Virus record (IMG/VR): IMGVR_UViG_3300030389_003466
Span: 1 to 28,178 of that record
Length of the DNA: 28,178 nt
Direction: 5' to 3' (one strand)
DNA from: a virus
A program made the position numbers and the translations under genes. A model generated the notes under the pieces. It saw only the letters and a list, made by a program, of their open reading frames with translations. It had not been told where the DNA came from and ran no database searches. This document shows positions 5,343 to 22,060 of the stretch, in pieces (position 1 is the first letter of the stretch; the number at the start of each line of letters is the position of its first letter).

Positions 5343-5374
5343 AAGGGTATAAGACTAGATGCGGAGATATAGGT

Positions 5375-5569: not shown

Positions 5570-6011
5570 AGCAAAGCCCAATTTGAAAGCGGCAGCAGAA
5601 GGCGTAGCGAAACTATCAGAAGCATATGTTGACGTTACGGACAAAAAATTAGACCCCGATAATATCGGGGGTTCTCTCTTAGATAGGATGCCGGACCCAA
5701 CAGGGTGGCGGCTTTTGATTTTACCTTACAGAGGAAAAGGAAAAACCGACGGCGGTATTTTCCTTCCAGACCAGACAGTAGAAGAACACACCATTTCCAC
5801 ACAGGTTGGGTATGTTCTAAAAACTGGTCCTTTGGCATACCAAGATCCAGAAAAATTTGAATCTGGTCCGTGGTGTGAAAAAGGCGATTGGGTGATGTTT
5901 GCCCGATATGCTGGCTCTCGTTTTAAAATAGATGGCGGTGAAGTACGCATTCTAAATGACGATGAGGTTTTAGCTAAAATTCAAGAGCCCGAAGATATTT
6001 TGCATTTCTAG
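5562..6011 (+). CDS. Phage GroES-like co-chaperonin
   Basis: 149 residues. Residues about 48-140 match the chaperonin-10 fold: the GWRLLILPYRG strand, a mobile loop at about 57-72 containing TDGGIFLPD, and the C-terminal KGDWVMFARYAGSRFKIDGG and EVRILNDDEVLAKI strands. The loop hydrophobic triplet IFL corresponds to the GroEL-contacting IVL of bacterial GroES. About 45 extra N-terminal residues precede the fold, absent from the usual 97-residue GroES. It would cap the host GroEL, replacing host GroES for folding large capsid subunits, as T4 gp31 does. Position just before scaffold and capsid genes supports this. No groEL is visible. Confidence 0.88.
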   Translation: MTKAKPNLKAAAEGVAKLSEAYVDVTDKKLDPDNIGGSLLDRMPDPTGWRLLILPYRGKGKTDGGIFLPDQTVEEHTISTQVGYVLKTGPLAYQDPEKFESGPWCEKGDWVMFARYAGSRFKIDGGEVRILNDDEVLAKIQEPEDILHF

Positions 6012-6019
6012 GAGATATT

Positions 6020-6916
6020 ATGAGTGACGAAGATGTTAAAGAGCAGGAACAAGTTGAACTTGAGCTACCGGAACAAGAGTCCGATGACGCTGTGGTTGTT
6101 GAAGAAACAAGCACAGAGGAAGGGTCTGACAACTTTGAAAAGGCAGAAAGCGCAACGCAAAAGCGCATAGACCGCCTAACAAAACGTATGCGGGAGGCCG
6201 AACGCGATAAAGACGAGGCCATACGTTACGCACAACAGGTGCAAAACGAAAACACTCAATTTAAACAGCGCATACAAAACATGGATCAGAACTATGTTTC
6301 TGAGTTCAGTAATCGCGTTGAATCACAACTTGGCTCTGCCGAAGCGGAGTTAGCTCGTGCTGTTGAATTGGGGGATTCTGCTCAAGTCGTAGAGGCTCAA
6401 AAAAAGCTGACACAATTGGCTATTGAAAATGATCGTGCTCAACAGGCAAAAGTGCAGCAAGAAAGACTTGCCCAACAGCAAGCCGCATATCAACAGCAAG
6501 CCGCATATCAACAGCAGCAACAGCCGCCACAGGCCCAACAAGCTTACAAAGAACCCGACCCGAAAGCGCAGAGATGGGCTGAAAGAAACGATTGGTTTGG
6601 GTCTGACGAAGCCATGACTTACGCTGCTTTTGGTATCCACAAAAAACTTGTCGAGGACGAGGGATTTGACCCAACCTCTGACGAGTATTATAGTGAGTTG
6701 GACAGCAGAATGATTGAGGAGTTTCCTCATAAGCTTGATTCTGCTCAAAACGACAAACGGGGAAGCAAAAGATCCGCCCAAAATGTTGCTTCAGTATCCC
6801 GCTCTACCGGTGGGCGCAGTAAAGGAAAAAAGGTTAGACTCACCCCTAGCCAGATTTCTATAGCTAAAAAATTGGGTGTGCCGCTTGAAGAATACGCGAA
6901 ATACGTGAAGGAGTAG
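6020..6916 (+). CDS. Head scaffolding protein
   Basis: 298 residues with the composition of a phage scaffold: a very acidic N-terminus (1-40), a long coiled coil (about 45-150), a low-complexity glutamine run (150-175), a WAERNDWFGSDEAMTYAAF segment (187-205) and a basic C-terminus (about 245-298, including RSKGKKVRLTPSQ) that would contact capsid subunits. It lies two genes upstream of the decoration/capsid pair, the normal place for a scaffold. AGGAG at 6010-6014 supports the start. Assignment rests on composition and position as well as resemblance to marine phage scaffolds; no protease domain is seen, so scaffold removal without proteolysis is likely. Confidence 0.82.
   Translation: MSDEDVKEQEQVELELPEQESDDAVVVEETSTEEGSDNFEKAESATQKRIDRLTKRMREAERDKDEAIRYAQQVQNENTQFKQRIQNMDQNYVSEFSNRVESQLGSAEAELARAVELGDSAQVVEAQKKLTQLAIENDRAQQAKVQQERLAQQQAAYQQQAAYQQQQQPPQAQQAYKEPDPKAQRWAERNDWFGSDEAMTYAAFGIHKKLVEDEGFDPTSDEYYSELDSRMIEEFPHKLDSAQNDKRGSKRSAQNVASVSRSTGGRSKGKKVRLTPSQISIAKKLGVPLEEYAKYVKE
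6473..6508 (+). repeat. Two exact 18-base tandem copies in the scaffold gene
   Basis: The unit caacagcaagccgcatat occurs at 6473-6490 and 6491-6508, encoding QQQAAY-type repeats in a glutamine-rich linker. Exact copies suggest a recent slippage event. Confidence 0.9.
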
Positions 6917-10039: not shown

Positions 10040-10324
10040 ATGGCGACGACAGCAGATGTTCAACGACTTCCCTCTGGTAGAATAAAATACAGAGGTGAAA
10101 CATTTGCCGGTTTTAACAAACCAAAAAGAACCCCCGGTAAATCCAAAAAAAGCGCAGTTCTTGCCAAGAAAGGCAAAGAAATAAAGCTTGTAAGATTTGG
10201 TGATCCTAATATGTCTATCAAAAAAGATCAGCCCGGTCGTCGCCGTAATTTTCGTGCTCGTCACAACTGTGACACTGCGAAAGATAAGTTTAGTGCTAGA
10301 TATTGGTCTTGTAAGGCTTGGTAA
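10040..10324 (+). CDS. Small basic conserved phage protein
   Basis: 94 residues, strongly basic. The C-terminal half RFGDPNMSIKKDQPGRRRNF followed by RARHNCD and ARYWSCKAW is a pattern I recall from cyanophages and other marine phages. A central lysine cluster (KSKKSAVLAKKGKEIKL) precedes it. The conserved His and two Cys near the C-terminus could bind metal or form a disulphide. No function is established that I know of; a compact nucleic-acid-associated virion protein is plausible. AGGAG at 10030-10034 supports the ATG. Confidence 0.75.
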   Translation: MATTADVQRLPSGRIKYRGETFAGFNKPKRTPGKSKKSAVLAKKGKEIKLVRFGDPNMSIKKDQPGRRRNFRARHNCDTAKDKFSARYWSCKAW

Positions 10325-10325
10325 A

Positions 10326-10484
10326 ATGAAAGTAGCAGAGGTTTTAGAGCGACTTGAAAAGCACGAAGAAGAGTGCGTCAAACGATATACCGATATCCAA
10401 AAACAATTGGATAAGTTTGACACTCGTCTTTGGGGCATAGCGGTCCTGATAGTTGCAACTGCAATAGCAAATAAGTTTGTGTAA
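10326..10484 (+). CDS. XhlA-like coiled-coil plus membrane-span protein
   Basis: 52 residues from the ATG at 10326, one base after the preceding stop. Longer in-frame starts back to 10197 lie within the preceding gene and are rejected. Residues 1-33 form a charged amphipathic helix with heptads (VLERLEKHEEECVKRY, DIQKQLDKFDTRL) and 34-51 a hydrophobic C-terminal span. This is the architecture of haemolysin XhlA-type phage membrane proteins and resembles small proteins in other marine phages. It may assist lysis even though it lies outside the holin-endolysin cluster. Confidence 0.72.
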   Translation: MKVAEVLERLEKHEEECVKRYTDIQKQLDKFDTRLWGIAVLIVATAIANKFV

Positions 10485-11017: not shown

Positions 11018-11314
11018 ATGTCAAATTCGCGAGTAAATTTGGGGGCAGGCGGCTTCCAACAAAAAACCACTAAAAAGAAACCAAAAAAGAACGGTAACAA
11101 AATGAAAGCCAAAGGCATGGCCAAAGGTGGTGCTGTAAAGAAAATGGCTAAAGGCGGCTCAGTCAAAAAAATGATGAAGGGCGGCCCCGTTAAGAAAATG
11201 GCTAAAGGCGGCCCCGTTAAGAAAATGGCAAACGGCGGAGTAATGAAGAAAAAAGGCATGGCTAAAGGCGGTGCTGTGAAAAAAATGAAACGTGGCGGTA
11301 AAGTTACGAAGTAA
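11018..11314 (+). CDS. KGG-repeat lysine-rich protein
   Basis: 98 residues dominated by degenerate nine-residue repeats of the form KKMAKGG(A/S/P)V, about seven copies from residue 34 onward, giving an extremely basic, probably disordered chain reminiscent of histone H1 tails. The N-terminus (NSRVNLGAGGFQQKTTKKK) is unrelated to the repeats. GGAG just upstream (about 11008-11012) supports the ATG. It may bind and condense DNA inside the head, or act as a flexible linker; both are inferences from composition. Stop and next start overlap (TAATG). Confidence 0.78.
   Translation: MSNSRVNLGAGGFQQKTTKKKPKKNGNKMKAKGMAKGGAVKKMAKGGSVKKMMKGGPVKKMAKGGPVKKMANGGVMKKKGMAKGGAVKKMKRGGKVTK
11117..11305 (+). 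repeat. 27-base tandem repeat array encoding the KGG repeats
   Basis: Degenerate copies of a 27-base unit. The two best copies, starting at 11180 and 11207, are identical over the first 23 bases (ggcggccccgttaagaaaat...), so the array has expanded recently at its centre. Confidence 0.85.
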
Positions 11315-12000
11315 TGCCTTTTTTACAGAGCAGCCTACCGCAGTATTTTAAATGCTGGGTACGCCGAGAATATACGTGCAATCATGACCGTTATCATGGG
11401 GAGTTTTTGCACGCGATGGCAGTGGCCGTCACAACGATGCCAATGAGATGCTTGAGTTTTCAGGTAATTTTCACGGGATACGAGTCCGACAGCACTGATG
11501 AACCTAACGTACACGGAGGTGCTATGTGGGCAAGGATGCCCATAACTGCACTGGTTGGTGACACTCAAATGGAGGACTGGCCGCAACCGATGGCTGTACA
11601 TCATGCACAGCCTTGGGATTGTATGAGTCATACCCACGCTGTGTACACAATTAATAGGGCCCAGCCTTGTCCGTGGCTAGCAAAAATCGACGGTAATTTT
11701 TATCCTGCAAAGTACTATTTTACCGTTGATTATACAGATCACGAAATAGCGGATGATCCGGCGCAACACAAACAAAGCCATGTTTTGGAGTTGCTAGACG
11801 CTGGAGAGTGGACAGGCAACATAGTTGCGCTTCCAAATAATCGTGTAAGGGTGACACACCCCGCTTGGTACGAAACAGGAGAGGGGGCCCCGGACTTTCG
11901 TCCTTCTCAACATATACATTACTCCAAATCTGATTTAGACTACACTTTGGATGTAAACCAGATTTTTGATAATCTATACGCGGACGATGAGGACAAGTAA
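11314..12000 (+). CDS. Conserved hypothetical phage protein
   Basis: 228 residues with features I recall from marine phage operons: an N-terminus FKCWVRREYTCNHDRYHGEF, a central MWARMPITALVGDTQMEDWP, and the later GNFYPAKYYFTVDYTDHEIA. It is rich in aromatic residues and histidine and looks like a globular beta-rich domain. No catalytic motif is clear. Position between the small basic proteins and the gp4-like adaptor suggests a tail or connector component, but this is position-based only. Overlaps by one base on both sides. Confidence 0.75.
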   Translation: MPFLQSSLPQYFKCWVRREYTCNHDRYHGEFLHAMAVAVTTMPMRCLSFQVIFTGYESDSTDEPNVHGGAMWARMPITALVGDTQMEDWPQPMAVHHAQPWDCMSHTHAVYTINRAQPCPWLAKIDGNFYPAKYYFTVDYTDHEIADDPAQHKQSHVLELLDAGEWTGNIVALPNNRVRVTHPAWYETGEGAPDFRPSQHIHYSKSDLDYTLDVNQIFDNLYADDEDK

Positions 12001-14779: not shown

Positions 14780-15346
14780 ATGGCTAGTATAGCTGGATGG
14801 GCGAGAGGTTCTTGGAACGAGGGTGCTTGGGGCACTGCTTTACCCGTCCAAGTAACGGGAAATGCCGGAACAGGAACACTTGGAAACGTTAGCGCTCAAG
14901 GCGCAGTTGTTGTATCTCTTTCAGGTGTTGCTGGAACCGGCACCCTCGGCAACGAAACGATTTTAGCAGGCGCAGTTGTAAGCGCGTCTGGTAATGCGGG
15001 CACAACCACACTTGGCAGCGTAACTGTAGCGGAGGGCATTGGCGTCGTTGTATCAGGCGTTTCTGCTTCATTGGGACAAGGTTCTGTAACTATTATCGGT
15101 AAAGCGGTAGTCCCGGAGACTGGTTTGCAAGCCACCGGAAATGCTGGTACTGTTGTTGTAGCAGCAGATAGCGACGTAAGTGTCACGGGTGTTAGCGCCA
15201 CGGCTGCTTTGGGGTCAGTAGAGGTTTGGAGTCAAATTACACCAAGTCAAACGCCAAATTGGTCGGGAGTAAGTCCTTCGCAATCGCCTAGTTGGTCTGC
15301 GGTTTCTCCCTCTCAAAGCCCATCATGGGGCGATATAGCAGCGTAG
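14780..15346 (+). CDS. Repeat-rich virion protein with SPSQSPSW tail
   Basis: 188 residues. An N-terminal WARGSWNEGAWG segment (7-18) precedes about six degenerate repeats (residues 22-150) of roughly 17-26 residues, each built around (V/A)SG(N/V)AGTGTLG(N/S)V and suggesting a stacked beta structure. The C-terminus has three copies of an 11-residue unit (ITPSQTPNWSGV, SPSQSPSWSAV, SPSQSPSWGDI; 153-186) with a tryptophan at the same place each time. Such Trp/Pro repeats are often ligand- or surface-binding. The gene lies between tail genes and fibres. Function otherwise unknown. Confidence 0.78.
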   Translation: MASIAGWARGSWNEGAWGTALPVQVTGNAGTGTLGNVSAQGAVVVSLSGVAGTGTLGNETILAGAVVSASGNAGTTTLGSVTVAEGIGVVVSGVSASLGQGSVTIIGKAVVPETGLQATGNAGTVVVAADSDVSVTGVSATAALGSVEVWSQITPSQTPNWSGVSPSQSPSWSAVSPSQSPSWGDIAA

Positions 15347-15967: not shown

Positions 15968-16318
15968 ATGGCAAATACTTTTAAACTTAAAACACATGCG
16001 GCCATGCCAGCTTCAGCAGGCACGCCGGAAACACTTTACACGGTAGGCAGTTCAACCACTACAGTTATACTGGGTCTTATACTTTGTAATGTAGGAACAG
16101 CCCAACACACTGTGGATGTTGTATTAGAATCTGACACAAGTGACACAGAAACAAATGCAACCGTAAAATTGCTTGAAAATGTACCGATACCAACTGGTTC
16201 ATCGTTGGAAGTTTTATCTGGGGGAAAGGTTGTTTTACAAACAACAGATGTGTTGAAAATTGACGCAGACACAGCGGCAAAAATTGACGCGACATTGAGC
16301 ATTATGGAGATCACTTGA
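15968..16318 (+). CDS. Small beta-rich structural protein
   Basis: 116 residues. MANTFKLKTHAAMPASAGTP and GSSTTTVILGLILCNVGTAQ are typical of a small protein placed before fibre genes in marine phages, in my memory. The alternating hydrophobic pattern (TVDVVLESDTSDTETNATVK) suggests a beta-sandwich. Function unknown, probably a fibre-associated or tail-tip component. Its stop overlaps the next start. Confidence 0.74.
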   Translation: MANTFKLKTHAAMPASAGTPETLYTVGSSTTTVILGLILCNVGTAQHTVDVVLESDTSDTETNATVKLLENVPIPTGSSLEVLSGGKVVLQTTDVLKIDADTAAKIDATLSIMEIT

Positions 16319-17445
16319 TGCCTTACGTTGGCAAAAAAGCCACAAACGTAGTGGACGTAGCAGAGTCACAATCCCTTACGATTGATGATAATCTAACGAC
16401 TCCCTCTATTAACAGCGGTCAGATTGGTGGGCGGCGCAACCTTGCGTATAACGGCGCAATGAAAATTTCTCAACGTGGAACCCAAACAAGCCAAACAGGA
16501 AGTTCCTACACGGCTTGCGATAGGTTTTTGACATCTGAAAGTGGTGCGGCTATTACAACCTCCACCCAAGAAACAGATGTTCCGTCGGGTCAAGGATTTG
16601 CTAATTCTTTAGAAATTGACGTAACAACGGCTGACGCCAGTTTAGCTGCTTCTGATAATTTTTTAATTATTCAAAGGCTGGAAGGGCAAGATTTACAGCA
16701 TTTGCTATATGGCACTAGTGGTGCAAAAGAGTTGACTATTAGTTTTTGGGTAAAGTCGCCAAAGACCGGGACGCATATCCTTGAACTGCGCCACAATGAT
16801 GCAACTTATTTTAACTCTCAAGCGTACACTATTGCATCAGCAAACACTTGGCAGAATGTCCAACTTACCTTTGCTGGATACACGACAACGGCTTTTGACG
16901 ATGACAACGCCCATAGTTTAAGTATGAATTGGTGGTTAGCCGCAGGCAGTAATTTTTCGGGCGGCACATTGAACTCAAACACTTGGCACAATACTGCTGC
17001 CAATCGTGCAGTTGGTCAGGTAAATTGTGTCGATGATGAGGCTAATAATTTCTATCTGACGGGCGTTCAACTTGAAGTCGGCTCAGTAGCCACCGAGTTT
17101 GAGCATCAAACTTTTGGTGAAGAGTTGGCGTTGTGTCAGAGGTATTATCAAAGCATTGATACAAACACAAACCAAGCTCTCGCCTTTGGTACAAGACAAA
17201 CTACAAACACTGTAAGATTTAGTATTCCAACGCCAGTAACATTAAGAGCCAGTCCGTCTATAACTATTTCTGGAACAGTAGAGTGTCAGGAAAGCGACGG
17301 GACTACCACATCAATCACCAGTATTTCAGCCGTACAAAGTTCAGGTAATTATGTTGTTGCCACAGGCACAGCGTCTGGTGTTGTTGCTGGGTCAATAACT
17401 GTAAGCGCAAACAGTGGCGCAACGGCTATAGATGCGGAGTTATAA
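16318..17445 (+). CDS. Receptor-binding fibre, first copy
   Basis: 375 residues from the ATG at 16318, which overlaps the preceding stop TGA; a TTG at 16315 adds one residue and is less likely. The MPYVGKKATNVVDV start is a probable attachment segment. RRNLAYNGAMKISQRG and FLIIQRLEGQDLQHLLYGTS begin the main beta domain, which ends with the ITGVQLEVGSVATEFEH-like motif (TGVQLEVGSVATEFEH) and EELALCQRYYQ. The last 80 residues are the most divergent part relative to the second copy and are probably the host-recognition tip. A paralogue lies immediately downstream (17627), each followed by a related small gene. Confidence 0.82.
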   Translation: MPYVGKKATNVVDVAESQSLTIDDNLTTPSINSGQIGGRRNLAYNGAMKISQRGTQTSQTGSSYTACDRFLTSESGAAITTSTQETDVPSGQGFANSLEIDVTTADASLAASDNFLIIQRLEGQDLQHLLYGTSGAKELTISFWVKSPKTGTHILELRHNDATYFNSQAYTIASANTWQNVQLTFAGYTTTAFDDDNAHSLSMNWWLAAGSNFSGGTLNSNTWHNTAANRAVGQVNCVDDEANNFYLTGVQLEVGSVATEFEHQTFGEELALCQRYYQSIDTNTNQALAFGTRQTTNTVRFSIPTPVTLRASPSITISGTVECQESDGTTTSITSISAVQSSGNYVVATGTASGVVAGSITVSANSGATAIDAEL

Positions 17446-18417
17446 TAATGAATGAAATGAATATTGCTTCTGCAAAGTATGTTGCCGACGACACAGGCAA
17501 TATTGCAATTATCGCCACCATTGATGGCTCTGAATGGGGTGTTCCCATATCGGAGGGCAACCGCCACTACACGGAAATCATGCGCCAAGTAGAAGCTGGC
17601 ACACTTACGATACAGGATGCTGACTGATGGCAAGTAAAGCAAGACAACTAGCACAATCCGCCAGCGCCCCTGAAGGGCGTAAGAATATTATAACAAATGG
17701 TGCGATGCAGGCGGCACAACGCTCAACTTCAGTTGCGGGTATAGGTGCGACTAATGGTGCTGCTTATCATACAGTTGATAGGTTCAACGTAAGTTTAAGT
17801 GGTCTTGCTGACGGGTCTAACAGTGGTGGAAGATTAACCATGTCGCAGGACAGTGATAGTCCTGACGGTTTTGCTAACTCGGTAAAATTTGCTTGCACAA
17901 CAGCACAAACCACCTTAGATGCAGGCGATTTTGTTTGGTTCAACACTCGTCTTGAGGGTCAAGATTTACAAAGATTTGCCAAAGGAACGTCTAGCGCAAA
18001 AAACTTTACACTAAGCTTTTATGTAAAAGCAAACTCTGCTCGTACTATGGTCGCAGAACTTTTTGATTCTGATAACACTAGAGCAGTTAGCAGAACATTT
18101 ACAACAACTACAGGTTGGTCACGCATCGAAATTGATTTTGGAGCAGATACCACAGGGGCATTTGATGATGATGGTAATTTAAGTTTATATGCTGCTATTT
18201 GGTTAGCAGCAGGGTCAACATACAGTAGTGGAACTTTGCAAACATCTTGGGTTTCTTCAACTGTTGCGAACAGAGCCGCAGGTAGTTCTAACTTTTTAAG
18301 TAGCACAGACAACACCTTGTTTATTACTGGGATGCAACTTGAAGTCGGCTCTGTAGCCACCGAGTTTGAGCATCGCAGTTTTACGGAAGAGTTGGCGTTG
18401 TGCAAGCGGTATTATCA
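17071..18417 (+). repeat. Imperfect 80-base direct repeat from the fibre duplication
   Basis: Bases 17071-17150 and 18338-18417 are highly similar (both begin cttgaagtcggctc), encoding LEVGSVATEFEH and EELALC of the two fibres. Further matched segments are at 17431 and 18620 (gatgcggagtt) and at 17558-17625 and 18756-18823. Only the named segments, not the whole span, are conserved. Confidence 0.85.
17448..17627 (+). CDS. Small fibre-associated protein, first copy
   Basis: 59 residues, start two bases after the fibre stop, stop overlapping the next fibre start by one base. The sequence begins MNEMNIASAKYVADDTGNIA and ends NRHYTEIMRQVEAGTLTIQD plus AD. It is clearly homologous to the 62-residue protein at 18637, with which it shares the NRHY.EI.RQVEAGTLTIQDAD ending. 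Such small genes directly after fibre genes are often assembly chaperones or capping subunits; that role is inferred from position. Being under 60 codons, it would escape many gene finders. Confidence 0.82.
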   Translation: MNEMNIASAKYVADDTGNIAIIATIDGSEWGVPISEGNRHYTEIMRQVEAGTLTIQDAD

Positions 18418-18634
18418 TGCACTTAGCACTGATAGGACTTTGTATGCTTCCGACTATGGCTCTCATTCGTTTGCTAGACTAGCGGCCCCAACAACAATGA
18501 GAGCAGTCCCGACTGTAACGGCAACGGCAAGTAGCACAGTTATTGGAACTTATCACACGCATGACATGATTCAGCTTTATCTTAATGGTAATGCCGCCAA
18601 TGCTAGTAGTGCAAAACTCGATGCGGAGTTGTAG
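17627..18634 (+). CDS. Receptor-binding fibre, second copy
   Basis: 335 residues. The start MASKARQLAQSASAPEGRKN differs from the MPY(V/I)GK starts of the fibres at 16318 and 18825, so it may attach differently. From ITNGAMQAAQRS onward it is paralogous to the first copy, sharing RLEGQDLQ, GTSSAKNFTLSFYVK, WLAAGSTYSSGTL, QLEVGSVATEFEH and EELALCKRYY. The C-terminal segment (about residues 265-335) diverges strongly, as expected for a receptor-binding tip. Together with its small downstream gene it forms the second unit of a duplicated cassette. Confidence 0.82.
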   Translation: MASKARQLAQSASAPEGRKNIITNGAMQAAQRSTSVAGIGATNGAAYHTVDRFNVSLSGLADGSNSGGRLTMSQDSDSPDGFANSVKFACTTAQTTLDAGDFVWFNTRLEGQDLQRFAKGTSSAKNFTLSFYVKANSARTMVAELFDSDNTRAVSRTFTTTTGWSRIEIDFGADTTGAFDDDGNLSLYAAIWLAAGSTYSSGTLQTSWVSSTVANRAAGSSNFLSSTDNTLFITGMQLEVGSVATEFEHRSFTEELALCKRYYHALSTDRTLYASDYGSHSFARLAAPTTMRAVPTVTATASSTVIGTYHTHDMIQLYLNGNAANASSAKLDAEL

Positions 18635-18636
18635 AA

Positions 18637-18825
18637 ATGAATGAAATGACAATCACATCGGCACAATATTTTGCAGACACTTTGGGCGATGGGGGAAACA
18701 TATCTGTCAAGGCTACCATTGATGGTGTTGAAATGTATGTCCCCCTCGACCCAGACAACCGCCACTACGCGGAAATCTTACGTCAAGTAGAAGCTGGCAC
18801 ACTTACAATACAGGATGCAGACTAA
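18637..18825 (+). CDS. Small fibre-associated protein, second copy
   Basis: 62 residues, starting two bases after the second fibre stop and overlapping the next gene by one base (TAATG). It is homologous to the protein at 17448 (MNEM start, VPLDPDNRHYAEILRQVEAG end) with a few inserted residues in the middle (LGDGGNISV). The conservation of both the protein and the local spacing shows the fibre and small gene were duplicated as a unit. Function not known; a fibre chaperone is the simplest guess. Confidence 0.82.
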   Translation: MNEMTITSAQYFADTLGDGGNISVKATIDGVEMYVPLDPDNRHYAEILRQVEAGTLTIQDAD

Positions 18826-20201
18826 TGCCTTATATTGGAAAAGACCCCGGAACTGGTTTACGCGGCAGATTTATCTACACCGCGACGGCTAACCAAACTA
18901 CGTTCAGCGGATCTGACAGTCTTGGTCGCACCCTGACATACACAGATTCTGAATACACAGACGTATATTTGAACGGCGTCAAGTTGGATAAGACAGACTA
19001 TACAGCCACCAGCGGCACAAGCGTCGTGCTTGATAGCGGTGCTTCAGCGGGCGATATTCTTGAAATTTTGGCTTTCGACACGTTTGGTCTGTTTTCTGGT
19101 GACTTTGCACAAGATGTAACGGTTGCAGGAGATCTTACGGTCTCCGGCACAACCACCGTTGCAGCCACTACAATGACAGGCGATCTGTCTCTTGCAGATA
19201 AGATTGTTCATACAGGCGATACCAATACCGCTATTCGCTTTCCAGCCGCCGATACGGTTACAATCGAAACGGCTGCATCGGAACGTATACGTGTCACTGA
19301 TGCTGGGAAAATTGGAATTGGCACCACGACACCAGAAAATCCTATTGAAATAGAAACCGCAAACACTTTGGGTTCGACGTTTACAGGAACCACACACGGC
19401 GAAGGTTTGCGGGTAACTCAATCTAGTTATTCGTCTGGTAATTTTGTTAGTCTTGTAGAGGCTCCTTATCAACCTAATGGCGTTCCAAATGTTCGTATGG
19501 CTGCTTTGTTTACTGGTAGCGGCTCAAGTCTAGCGTTTGGTACGTCTAATAGCTTTGGTTCGGGTGTTACAAACGAAGCAATGCGTATTGATAACAATGG
19601 CAATATTTTGTTGGGCATCACCAGCACTGGCACTACGGGTGCATATTTCGACCCAGAGTCCCTTGACAGAACTGTATTATTTACTGGAAGTTCTTCAGCT
19701 TCAAGTGGCATCACTTTAGTAGCATTTAATAATCCAAATGGAATTGTAGGCGGTATAAGCACTGCCGCCAGTTCTACATCCTTTAATACTTCATCAGATT
19801 ACCGCCTGAAAGAAAATATTACTGACATCACAGGTGCTATTGACCGCGTTAAAACACTAGCCCCAAAGCGGTTTAATTTTAAAGTTGACCCAGACAATAA
19901 GGTTGATGGTTTCTTGGCGCATGAAGCGCAGGAAGTTGTCCCCGAAGCAGTAACTGGAACCAAAGACCAAACAGAAGCCATCGGTGATTTGAAAGATGCA
20001 GATGGCAACGTTACAGAAAGCAAAGTGGTCAAACCAGACACGCTTCAAGAAGGATACACTTGGACAGAAACAGAAACACGACCAGTGTATCAAGGCATCG
20101 ACCAAGCCAAGCTAGTGCCGTTGCTTACAGCCGCATTGAAGGAGGCTATAGCAGAAATCGAAACTCTAAAAACTAAAGTCGCCGCTCTAGAGGCTGAATA
20201 A
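18825..20201 (+). CDS. Tail fibre with self-cleaving S74 chaperone domain
   Basis: 458 residues. The N-terminus (MPYIGKDPGTGLRGRFIYTA, then NQTTFSGSD and VYLNGVKLDKTDY) is a fibre attachment domain common in marine phages. The middle (95-320) is Thr/Ser/Gly-rich, including VAGDLTVSGTT and AGKIGIGTTTP, the collar-like motif that often precedes S74. SSDYRLKENI begins at about 323, where Ser324 is the likely autocleavage residue; APKRFNFKVDP and GFLAHEAQEVVPEAV follow, and the C-terminal ALKEAIAEIETLKTKVAALE is the trimerising coiled coil. The S74 domain assists trimer folding and then cuts itself off. Confidence 0.93.
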   Translation: MPYIGKDPGTGLRGRFIYTATANQTTFSGSDSLGRTLTYTDSEYTDVYLNGVKLDKTDYTATSGTSVVLDSGASAGDILEILAFDTFGLFSGDFAQDVTVAGDLTVSGTTTVAATTMTGDLSLADKIVHTGDTNTAIRFPAADTVTIETAASERIRVTDAGKIGIGTTTPENPIEIETANTLGSTFTGTTHGEGLRVTQSSYSSGNFVSLVEAPYQPNGVPNVRMAALFTGSGSSLAFGTSNSFGSGVTNEAMRIDNNGNILLGITSTGTTGAYFDPESLDRTVLFTGSSSASSGITLVAFNNPNGIVGGISTAASSTSFNTSSDYRLKENITDITGAIDRVKTLAPKRFNFKVDPDNKVDGFLAHEAQEVVPEAVTGTKDQTEAIGDLKDADGNVTESKVVKPDTLQEGYTWTETETRPVYQGIDQAKLVPLLTAALKEAIAEIETLKTKVAALEAE

Positions 20202-22060
20202 TGCCTTTTACCAAATTACAATTTAAACCCGGCATAAATAGAGAGGGTACACGTTACTCAAATGAAGGCGCTTGGTTTGATGGTAATTACATCCGTTTTA
20301 AATACGGATATGTTGAACGCATTGGTGGTTGGCGGAAGGTCAATTCAACCGCTTTTGACGGCACAATTCGTAAACTACACAATTTTGTAACTCTTTCTTC
20401 TTTGAATCTTCTTTTTATGGGGGGCAACGAAAAGGTATATCTTGAAGAGTCCGGCACTCTTAATGACATTACACCAATTCGATCTACCGTAAGTTTGCCA
20501 AGTAATCCAATAAATACCACCGGTGGGGCGGGTAGTGGCGTAGTTACAGTTACCACCTCTACAGCACACGGTGCCGCTATAGGCGATTTTGTGACTTTTG
20601 CCTCTTTAACGGCAGTAGACGGACTTACAACAGACAATTTGAACAAGGAACATGTGGTCGTTTCTGTTCCTACCACCACAACTTTTACAGTCAACACAGG
20701 CGGCTCTGCTACAAGCGGAGGTGTCGCTGGCGGTGGATCTTCCGGCACAGCGGCATTTCAACTTAGCATCGGACTCGACTCTACAGTGCTGGGGCCGGGT
20801 TGGGGTGCTGGCACATGGGGCCGGTTTACGTGGTCATCAAGTGCGGGTTCCTTGGCAGGGCAAACGCTGCGTTTGTGGTTTGCAGATGATTTTGGTGAAG
20901 ACTTAATTTTTAATGTGGCCGATGGACAGTTGTTTTATTGGGACGCTACCAACGGCGTTGGCACACGAGCAATAAATTTGGCAGACAAAGACGGGGCCAA
21001 TGAAGTGCCCTCTGTTGCCCGAAAGGTTCTTGTGTCCGAAGTAGACCGGCATGTTCTTTGCTTTGGAGCAAACCCTATTGGCTCTGCTGATCAAGACCCC
21101 TTACTTATACGGTGGTCAAGTCAAGAAAGTGCTGTGGATTGGTTTCCATCATCAACAAACACCGCAGGCGACTTGCGTTTGTCGCAAGGGTCCGAAATAA
21201 TTACGGCTGTCAGAACAAGCCGTCAAATCCTAGTTTGGACAGATCACAGCTTACACTCTGTACAATTTAGCGGAGCTCCATATACGTTTGGCACAGCTTT
21301 ATTGGCAGACAACATAAGAATTGCGGGCCCAAACACAGCAATTAGTGTGAATGATATTGTTTTCTGGATGGGCCAAGAAAATTTCTATGTTTATGACGGG
21401 CGCATACAACCTCTTCCGTGTTCAGTCCGGGATTATGTTTTCAGTGACTTGAACACCCAGCAATCTTTCAAGTTTCATGCCGGTAGCCTTTCGTCACAAT
21501 CAGAGGTTTGGTGGTTCTATTGCTCTGCAAGTTCCAATGAAATTGATAGATATGTCATATATAATTATGGAGAGCAGACTTGGTATTATGGAACGCTGGC
21601 GCGGACAGCTTGGAATGACCGGGCCGCAGGACAAAGGAGCTTTCCGCAAGCCGCAAGCACTGATTCGTTTCTGTATGATCACGAATATCTGTTAGATGAC
21701 GGTAGTCAAAGCCCCGCGATTGCAATACCTGCATTCGTGCAGTCCGCTGATTTCGATATTGGGGACGGTGACAAATTTATGCTTATCCGTCGAATTCTGC
21801 CGGACATTACATTTAATGGTTCTTCGGACAGCACACCGGCTGTAACTTTTACTATGCAATCACGCGATTTCAACGGCAAAGCCGTTAACGAAACAGTTAC
21901 AGGCTCTGTCGAGGAAACAAGCACAGATATTTATACCAATCAAATATTTTTACGTGCTAGAGGACGTTCCATGAATTTCAAAGTAAGCAACTCCGACACT
22001 GGCGTAAACTGGCGTTTGGGGGTTTCGCGTTTAGATGCAAGACCGGACGGTGGACGATGA
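20201..22060 (+). CDS. Tail hub / packaged-DNA stabilisation protein (P22 gp10-like)
   Basis: 619 residues. The N-terminus FKPGINREGTRYSNEGAWFD and IRFKYGYVERIGGWR, and the C-terminal FLRARGRSMNFKVSNSDTGV followed by WRLGVSRLDARPDG, are signatures I recognise in short-tailed marine phages and in the P22 gp10 type of tail proteins. The intervening region is beta-propeller-like with repeated blades (for example LLIRWSSQESAVDWFPSS, VWTDHSLHSVQFSG, NDIVFWMGQENFYVYDG). It would close the tail beneath the gp4-like adaptor and hold packaged DNA. A Gly/Ser/Thr-rich insert near 107-180 is not typical of the core fold and may be a surface loop. Confidence 0.85.
   Translation: MPFTKLQFKPGINREGTRYSNEGAWFDGNYIRFKYGYVERIGGWRKVNSTAFDGTIRKLHNFVTLSSLNLLFMGGNEKVYLEESGTLNDITPIRSTVSLPSNPINTTGGAGSGVVTVTTSTAHGAAIGDFVTFASLTAVDGLTTDNLNKEHVVVSVPTTTTFTVNTGGSATSGGVAGGGSSGTAAFQLSIGLDSTVLGPGWGAGTWGRFTWSSSAGSLAGQTLRLWFADDFGEDLIFNVADGQLFYWDATNGVGTRAINLADKDGANEVPSVARKVLVSEVDRHVLCFGANPIGSADQDPLLIRWSSQESAVDWFPSSTNTAGDLRLSQGSEIITAVRTSRQILVWTDHSLHSVQFSGAPYTFGTALLADNIRIAGPNTAISVNDIVFWMGQENFYVYDGRIQPLPCSVRDYVFSDLNTQQSFKFHAGSLSSQSEVWWFYCSASSNEIDRYVIYNYGEQTWYYGTLARTAWNDRAAGQRSFPQAASTDSFLYDHEYLLDDGSQSPAIAIPAFVQSADFDIGDGDKFMLIRRILPDITFNGSSDSTPAVTFTMQSRDFNGKAVNETVTGSVEETSTDIYTNQIFLRARGRSMNFKVSNSDTGVNWRLGVSRLDARPDGGR

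Follow-up and report, generated by a model that had tools for sequence, protein, structure and literature searches.

The stretch of DNA analysed here, hereafter the window, comprises 28,178 bases of a marine phage and is classed in IMG/VR as a linear virus contig; its portal protein is ca. 50–52% identical to those of Phage DSL-LC04 and the Pelagibacter phages HTVC023P and HTVC027P, and 44% identical to those of the Roseobacter phages CRP-901 and CRP-902. The row of tail-fibre genes, on the plus strand like both genes that flank it, starts directly downstream of 'pre' (15968–16318), a conserved gene coding for 116 aa, and comprises F1 (16318–17445; 375 aa), the slot-1 tail fibre, with its small partner gene S1 (17448–17627; 59 aa), the second tail fibre F2 (17627–18634; 335 aa), with the small partner gene S2 (18637–18825; 62 aa), and the third fibre G (18825–20201; 458 aa). 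Downstream lies n1 (20201–22060), coding for a conserved virion protein (phrog_3287) that served as the positional marker for finding relatives. F1 and F2 each consist of an N-terminal anchor (N1 and N2, respectively), a core resembling carbohydrate-binding modules (CBM), a tip, and a DAEL end, and G of an N3 anchor and a C-terminal Peptidase_S74 domain (chaperone of endosialidase; PF13884, E 5e-11). Elsewhere in the window, a gene located upstream of the tail-fibre region (11314–11997) matches phrog_3704 ('ferredoxin', auxiliary metabolic category; E 1e-27), and the protein encoded at 14780–15343 has internal repeats (GNAGTGTLGN-like, then SPSQSPSW) and no Pfam or PHROGs family match. In the related pelagiphage HTVC023P (L282), three annotated 2OG-Fe(II) oxygenase genes adjoin the tail-protein region.

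The two adjacent units of a fibre and a gene of ca. 60 residues (16318–18825; 375+59 and 335+62 residues) had been noticed in a preliminary description of the sequence, and their ORFs and lengths are as given there, as is the paralogy of their products. Residues 38–320 of F1 and 17–302 of F2 are 41.6% identical (E about 5e-67), and S1 and S2 are 67.7% identical over the whole length (E 4e-28). The similarity is not of a generic low-complexity kind, since both fibres match over their cores the profile of the tail-fibre family phrog_4492 (E 6e-56 for F1 and 1e-45 for F2), which defines the class-F fibres. The differences between S1 and S2, 14, 9, and 24 at the three codon positions and thus mostly at the third, form the pattern expected of real coding genes. 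At the DNA level, repeat D1 (17050–17150 and 18317–18417; 101 nt, 82% identity) spans the core/tip joint (GVQLEVGSVATEFEH..CQRYY), and repeat D2 (17558–17629 and 18756–18827; 72 nt, 90%) covers the 3′ halves of S1 (NRHY..GTLTIQDAD) and S2, both being slightly longer than first described; a further repeat is found at the fibre 3′ end and small-gene start (17431–17489 and 18620–18678; 59 nt, 78%). The tips past the RYY motif are unrelated, in agreement with the divergence reported for them; the N-termini also differ, but as two distinct anchors and not as one diverged end.

Both small genes start 2 nt past the fibre stop codon and the start of the next fibre gene overlaps the preceding stop by one base, a packing that fits coupled translation. 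Such a one-base overlap with the next start codon was found for 81 of 104 small genes, and translational coupling may run through the whole fibre row. Readthrough or frameshifting from the fibre into the small gene was rejected, the small genes having their own start codons in another frame. An AGGA is present near the 3′ end of both small genes (17612–17627 and 18810–18825), shortly before the next fibre start.

Relatives were sought in 160 viral-contig loci fetched by the neighbouring virion protein or by S2, and later in 280 loci. They yielded 226 distinct class-F fibres, of which 186 are followed by a homologue of the small gene (S), a rate inflated where the loci had been fetched by S itself or by the end box described below; at the loci fetched by the virion protein all class-F fibres but one (L032) are followed by S. 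Next to 35 of the 40 fibres without S lies another ORF, mostly of 50–66 residues with an NxDYQxxLxW..GN motif. The pair of fibre and S is widespread among viral contigs of marine origin. A locus carries from 0 to 4 class-F copies, with one-, two-, three-, and four-copy variants all existing in related contigs, and the copies, rather than occupying unrelated loci, share the tail-fibre region, where a third fibre gene frequently separates them. The cultured phages HMO-2011 and Melnitz-2 have one copy each in the stretch examined, and among bacterial and archaeal genomes only four S-bearing contigs were found, all from metagenome-assembled bins.

Although unrelated in sequence, almost all tips terminate in DAEL or a close variant of it, encoded by a box conserved at the nucleotide level (GATGCGGAGTTATAA). 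In F1 the box GATGCGGAGTTATAA (17431–17445) encodes DAEL and the stop codon, in F2 it reads GATGCGGAGTTGTAG (18620–18634), and in both units the end of its GGAG lies 8 nt ahead of the small-gene ATG. A third GATGCGGAG is present at 5358–5366, outside the fibre genes; the window contains three matches to it against 0.14 expected. In fibres that had not been fetched by the end-box motif, the alanine codon of the box is GCG in 93 of 101 cases, compared with 13% elsewhere in the same genes, the glutamate codon is GAG in 101 of 107 (38% elsewhere in the same genes), and the aspartate codon is nearly always GAT. GGAG precedes the ATG of the small gene by 5–9 nt, mostly by 8, in 95 of 107 cases. The exact 15-mer GATGCGGAGTTATAA has at least 123 matches in viral contigs; 114 of the 123 listed end genes of the fibre family, and among the listed matches at fibre ends the next gene is mostly S and in the rest mainly another small gene. 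The end box is likely to be the ribosome-binding site for S, contained within the last codons of the fibre gene. It is possible that it also acts as a homology joint for exchange, a role not separable here from that in ribosome binding. It could be argued instead that the DAEL end is conserved for the sake of the protein, as a C-terminal signal recognised by S, the codon pattern being secondary: glutamate occupies its position in nearly all complete fibres, preceded by alanine or serine, and the motif ends tips that are otherwise unrelated. However, the codon bias far exceeds that elsewhere in the same genes (homozygosity of the alanine codon 0.84 vs 0.30 expected) and the spacing between GGAG and the start codon is tight, which makes this explanation rather unlikely, although both causes may act together. 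No description of the DAEL end box was found in the published accounts of related fibre systems that were consulted, and neither Shine-Dalgarno nor ribosome is mentioned in one of them (PMC10579305).

Chimeric fibres occur in relatives. In that of L145, an anchor and core close to those of F2 (84% nucleotide identity) are joined to a tip (78%) and a small gene (about 85%) of the F1 kind, with the breakpoint in QLEVGSVATEFE/RRSFGEELALCQRYY, i.e. in repeat D1 (maxchi 198, reached by 0 of 2000 permutations). One fibre of L083 (L083-A) comprises the N1 anchor on an F2-like body followed by an S 94% identical to S2, the breakpoint being at GGQIGGRRN (0 of 2000 permutations). In a survey of 167 pairs of fibre and S, compared all against all and not phylogenetically independent, the core was kept (≥75% identity) and the tip lost (<35%) in 11 comparisons, and the tip kept (≥50%) and the core lost (<60%) in another 11. 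S reaches 80% identity between fibres that have only the tip in common, against a background of 51% (p 5e-6, with the same non-independence of the pairs), and 69% between those that have only the core in common (p 0.0015, same background); these two values do not differ significantly from each other (p 0.11). Comparison at the DNA level revealed that S was replaced together with the tip in L037/L052 and L042/L079, while in L120/L133 and L065/L068 the crossover lies inside S, whose N-terminal half is more variable than its C-terminal half. Global distances of S do not correlate with those of the core or anchor, and correlate weakly with those of the tip (a value reached by 2 of 500 permutations). 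The linkage of S to the tip is only a tendency, since S is also fairly similar when the core but not the tip is shared and crossovers also occur inside it. As for the proposal that the direct repeats form a hotspot for swapping tips, the swapping of tips and the coincidence of D1 with the L145 crossover support it, but recent recombination or conversion between F1 and F2 within this genome is not proven, since D1 of F1 is closer to that of L003 (0.889) than to that of F2 (0.844).

The model of F2 (mean pLDDT 87.8) has a jelly-roll core that resembles the carbohydrate-binding modules CBM4 and CBM16 (best E around 1e-6). S2 is predicted (AF2, mean pLDDT 91.9; model input without rows from phage records) to fold as beta-beta-beta-alpha (strands 6–13, 21–28, and 31–36, helix 42–53), an arrangement otherwise found in uncharacterised phage proteins. 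S has no Pfam or NCBIfam match above the cut-off, including Caudo_TAP and Tfa (Mu, lambda, T4 gp38), and no PHROG match better than E 0.03; the PDB gave nothing convincing in a sequence search and no match at E ≤ 0.001 in a fold search (Foldseek). SHOCT-like and DUF1905 were discarded as families of S, the matches being weak and below the cut-off. In Pfam, neither S nor any of 79 relatives matches DUF4376, which was found only in the alternative partner of the class-F fibre of L252 (128 aa; above the cut-off), the N-terminal part of which matches the S profile (hhalign probability 93.5% over 25 columns). The alternative small partners match the same profile with a probability of 98.6%.

The Alteromonas phages A5 and V22 have a module of tail fibre and chaperone that is common to distant phages, according to two accounts (PMC10579305, PMC7289586), by which the V22 chaperone is needed by its fibre for host binding and DUF4376 is present in its relatives. 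As in the window, the fibre gene there is directly followed by a small gene, which codes for the chaperone, and the L252 partner provides a further likeness. However, chaperones of the V22 gp27 and A5 gp9 type are 195–239 aa long, unlike S, which has 56–67 aa and no DUF4376, and the accessible parts of both accounts contain no anchors with core/tip crossovers within the fibre. A fibre with a downstream partner is also found in Pam3 (gp24/gp25) and Mu (Tfa), and in Pam3 the distal part of the fibre is bound by the N-terminal ca. 55 residues of gp25, which form beta strands and a short helix (PMC9608196). In contrast to gp25, a protein of 162 aa in all with a C-terminal trimerisation domain (PMC9608196), S in the model ends after one helix and the helical trimerisation domain is absent. 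HMO-2011 (gp28–gp27, GU557055) and Melnitz-2 (gp177–gp178, MZ577096) carry pairs of the same family in the same order, with a small protein 57–63% identical to S2 and annotated in Melnitz as a 'tail assembly chaperone'; unlike the window they have a single copy each, and no published account treating the pair as an exchangeable unit was found.

S is most likely a fibre-assembly partner (chaperone). By analogy, it would be the equivalent of the binding part alone of a Pam3-type chaperone, with no fold match to solved chaperones. Alternatively, S could belong to the virion structure, as a distal adhesin or cap that is kept on the fibre and forms the receptor-binding unit together with the tip, instead of being a transient chaperone. 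Its tendency to travel with the tip and the greater variability of its N-terminal half speak for such a role, for which there are precedents in Tfa of Mu, which remains bound, and in gp38 of S16, an adhesin at the tip (both cited in PMC7289586). Nevertheless, next to the hypervariable tips S is a small and fairly conserved protein, and sister loci replace it with other proteins of the NxDYQxxLxW..GN kind and once with one bearing DUF4376, in the same source the domain of the V22-type chaperone; a structural S is considered improbable.

The N-termini at the locus are of three anchor types, N1, located after 'pre', N2, and N3. Strong matches to the N1 anchor of F1 (MPYVGKKATNVVDV..GQIGG; 16318–16431) directly follow 'pre' in five lineages (the window, L003 with near-identical contigs, L083/L084, L145, and L192), a homologue of 'pre' directly precedes every strong N1-type anchor found, and the tips behind these anchors differ. 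N1 carries class-F bodies in the window and L083, other fibres in L003 and L192, and an S74 body in L145; N3, which bears the S74 body in the window, is joined to a class-F body in L083. As the same anchors bear different bodies across lineages, anchors are tied to a position and bodies are mobile, so that position-specific N-terminal anchors with exchangeable C-terminal parts are present, best documented for N1. The order of the slots varies, being N1–N2–N3 in the window and N1–N3–N2 in L145 and L083. A second tip class has a partner of ca. 90 residues (phrog_6228), 89% identical between L003, where it lies behind N1 (5759–6061), and L192, where it lies behind N3 (10169–10447). This partner family follows the different tip class in many loci and moves between anchors. 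An exchange of C-terminal parts by homologous recombination on conserved N-termini is known from the branched tailspikes TSP1–TSP4 of Ackermannviridae (PMC11414711), where each phage likewise has several receptor-binding proteins with conserved N-terminal structural parts; unlike the fibres described here, the tailspikes are joined via XD/TD domains and have no small downstream partner, and chaperones are not mentioned in that account.

The preliminary description ascribed the two units to a local tandem duplication of one cassette of fibre and small gene followed by divergence, in keeping with their adjacency, the same gene order, the 41.6% and 67.7% protein identities, and the DNA repeats. 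The codons of D1 are, moreover, more alike than those of the rest of the core (20 of 25 vs 48 of 115, p 0.0007), and L178 and L172 each have related copies in a single genome. In a quick tree of 70 cores, however, F1 and F2 fall into different supported clades that include relatives from other phages, the former with L003 and L083-C and the latter with L145 and L192; their sister grouping is rejected, a tree constrained to it being worse by 170 log-likelihood units (p-AU 0.001). The anchors of the two units also differ and carry other bodies in relatives, and the closest relative, L003 (93% identity in n1), combines an F1-like body with the N2 anchor rather than showing a single copy that predates a duplication. 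A local duplication is therefore very unlikely to have produced F1 and F2. Duplication does occur elsewhere, with related copies in L178 and sister copies in L172; on the single contig of L178 (498–8957) three of the four fibres of the same family have related cores, and duplication looks likely there.

A diversity-generating retroelement (DGR) or an invertase-type switch, suggested by the concentration of variation at the 3′ end of the fibre gene, can practically be dismissed as the diversifier of tips, which differ in length and whole sequence and not at single positions, no inverted repeats being seen around the units and the observed differences being those between genomes and slots.

Building on the observed anatomy, anchors, chimeras, conservation of the end box, and separate ancestry of F1 and F2, we regard it as quite probable that the locus is a row of slots rather than a duplicated unit. 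Each slot would have its own N-terminal anchor (N1 after 'pre', N2, or N3), onto which an exchangeable receptor-binding body, comprising the carbohydrate-binding-like core, the variable tip, and the S gene, would be placed. Cores and tips would have been moved by homologous recombination, the presumed process of exchange, at short joints, namely GGQIGGRRN between anchor and core, D1 between core and tip, the end box encoding DAEL, and the 3′ half of the small gene; the tip would mostly be accompanied by S, or by the first half of S. This protein would bind the distal end of the fibre and aid its folding or trimerisation, as do other fibre chaperones encoded just downstream. The conserved last codons of the fibre gene would serve as the ribosome-binding site for S, and thereby any acquired tip would keep S translated. 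The window would have class-F bodies in two of its slots, the third being occupied by an S74 body that has its chaperone built in. Several fibres would presumably be displayed together on one particle, and it is plausible that the two class-F fibres confer two receptor specificities, as previously proposed.

Shared modules of fibre and chaperone (PMC10579305) and the exchange of C-termini on conserved N-termini (PMC11414711) were already known; what is added here is that anchors specific to each slot, two joints within the fibre, a minimal partner with a tendency to accompany the tip, and the end box occur in combination. More tentatively, marine phages might share a common exchange grammar, in which units of tip and partner plug into position-specific anchors and a box of ca. 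15 nt is at once the last codons of the tip, the ribosome-binding site of a minimal chaperone of ca. 60 residues, and a homology joint; if so, foreign tips would arrive ready for translation and folding. The points at which receptor-binding parts of marine phages are cut and joined are located by these findings, and a testable function is offered for an uncharacterised family of small proteins in hundreds of viral contigs. The end box provides a short DNA signature by which tips of unknown sequence may be located in metagenomes, useful for studies of host change in phages.
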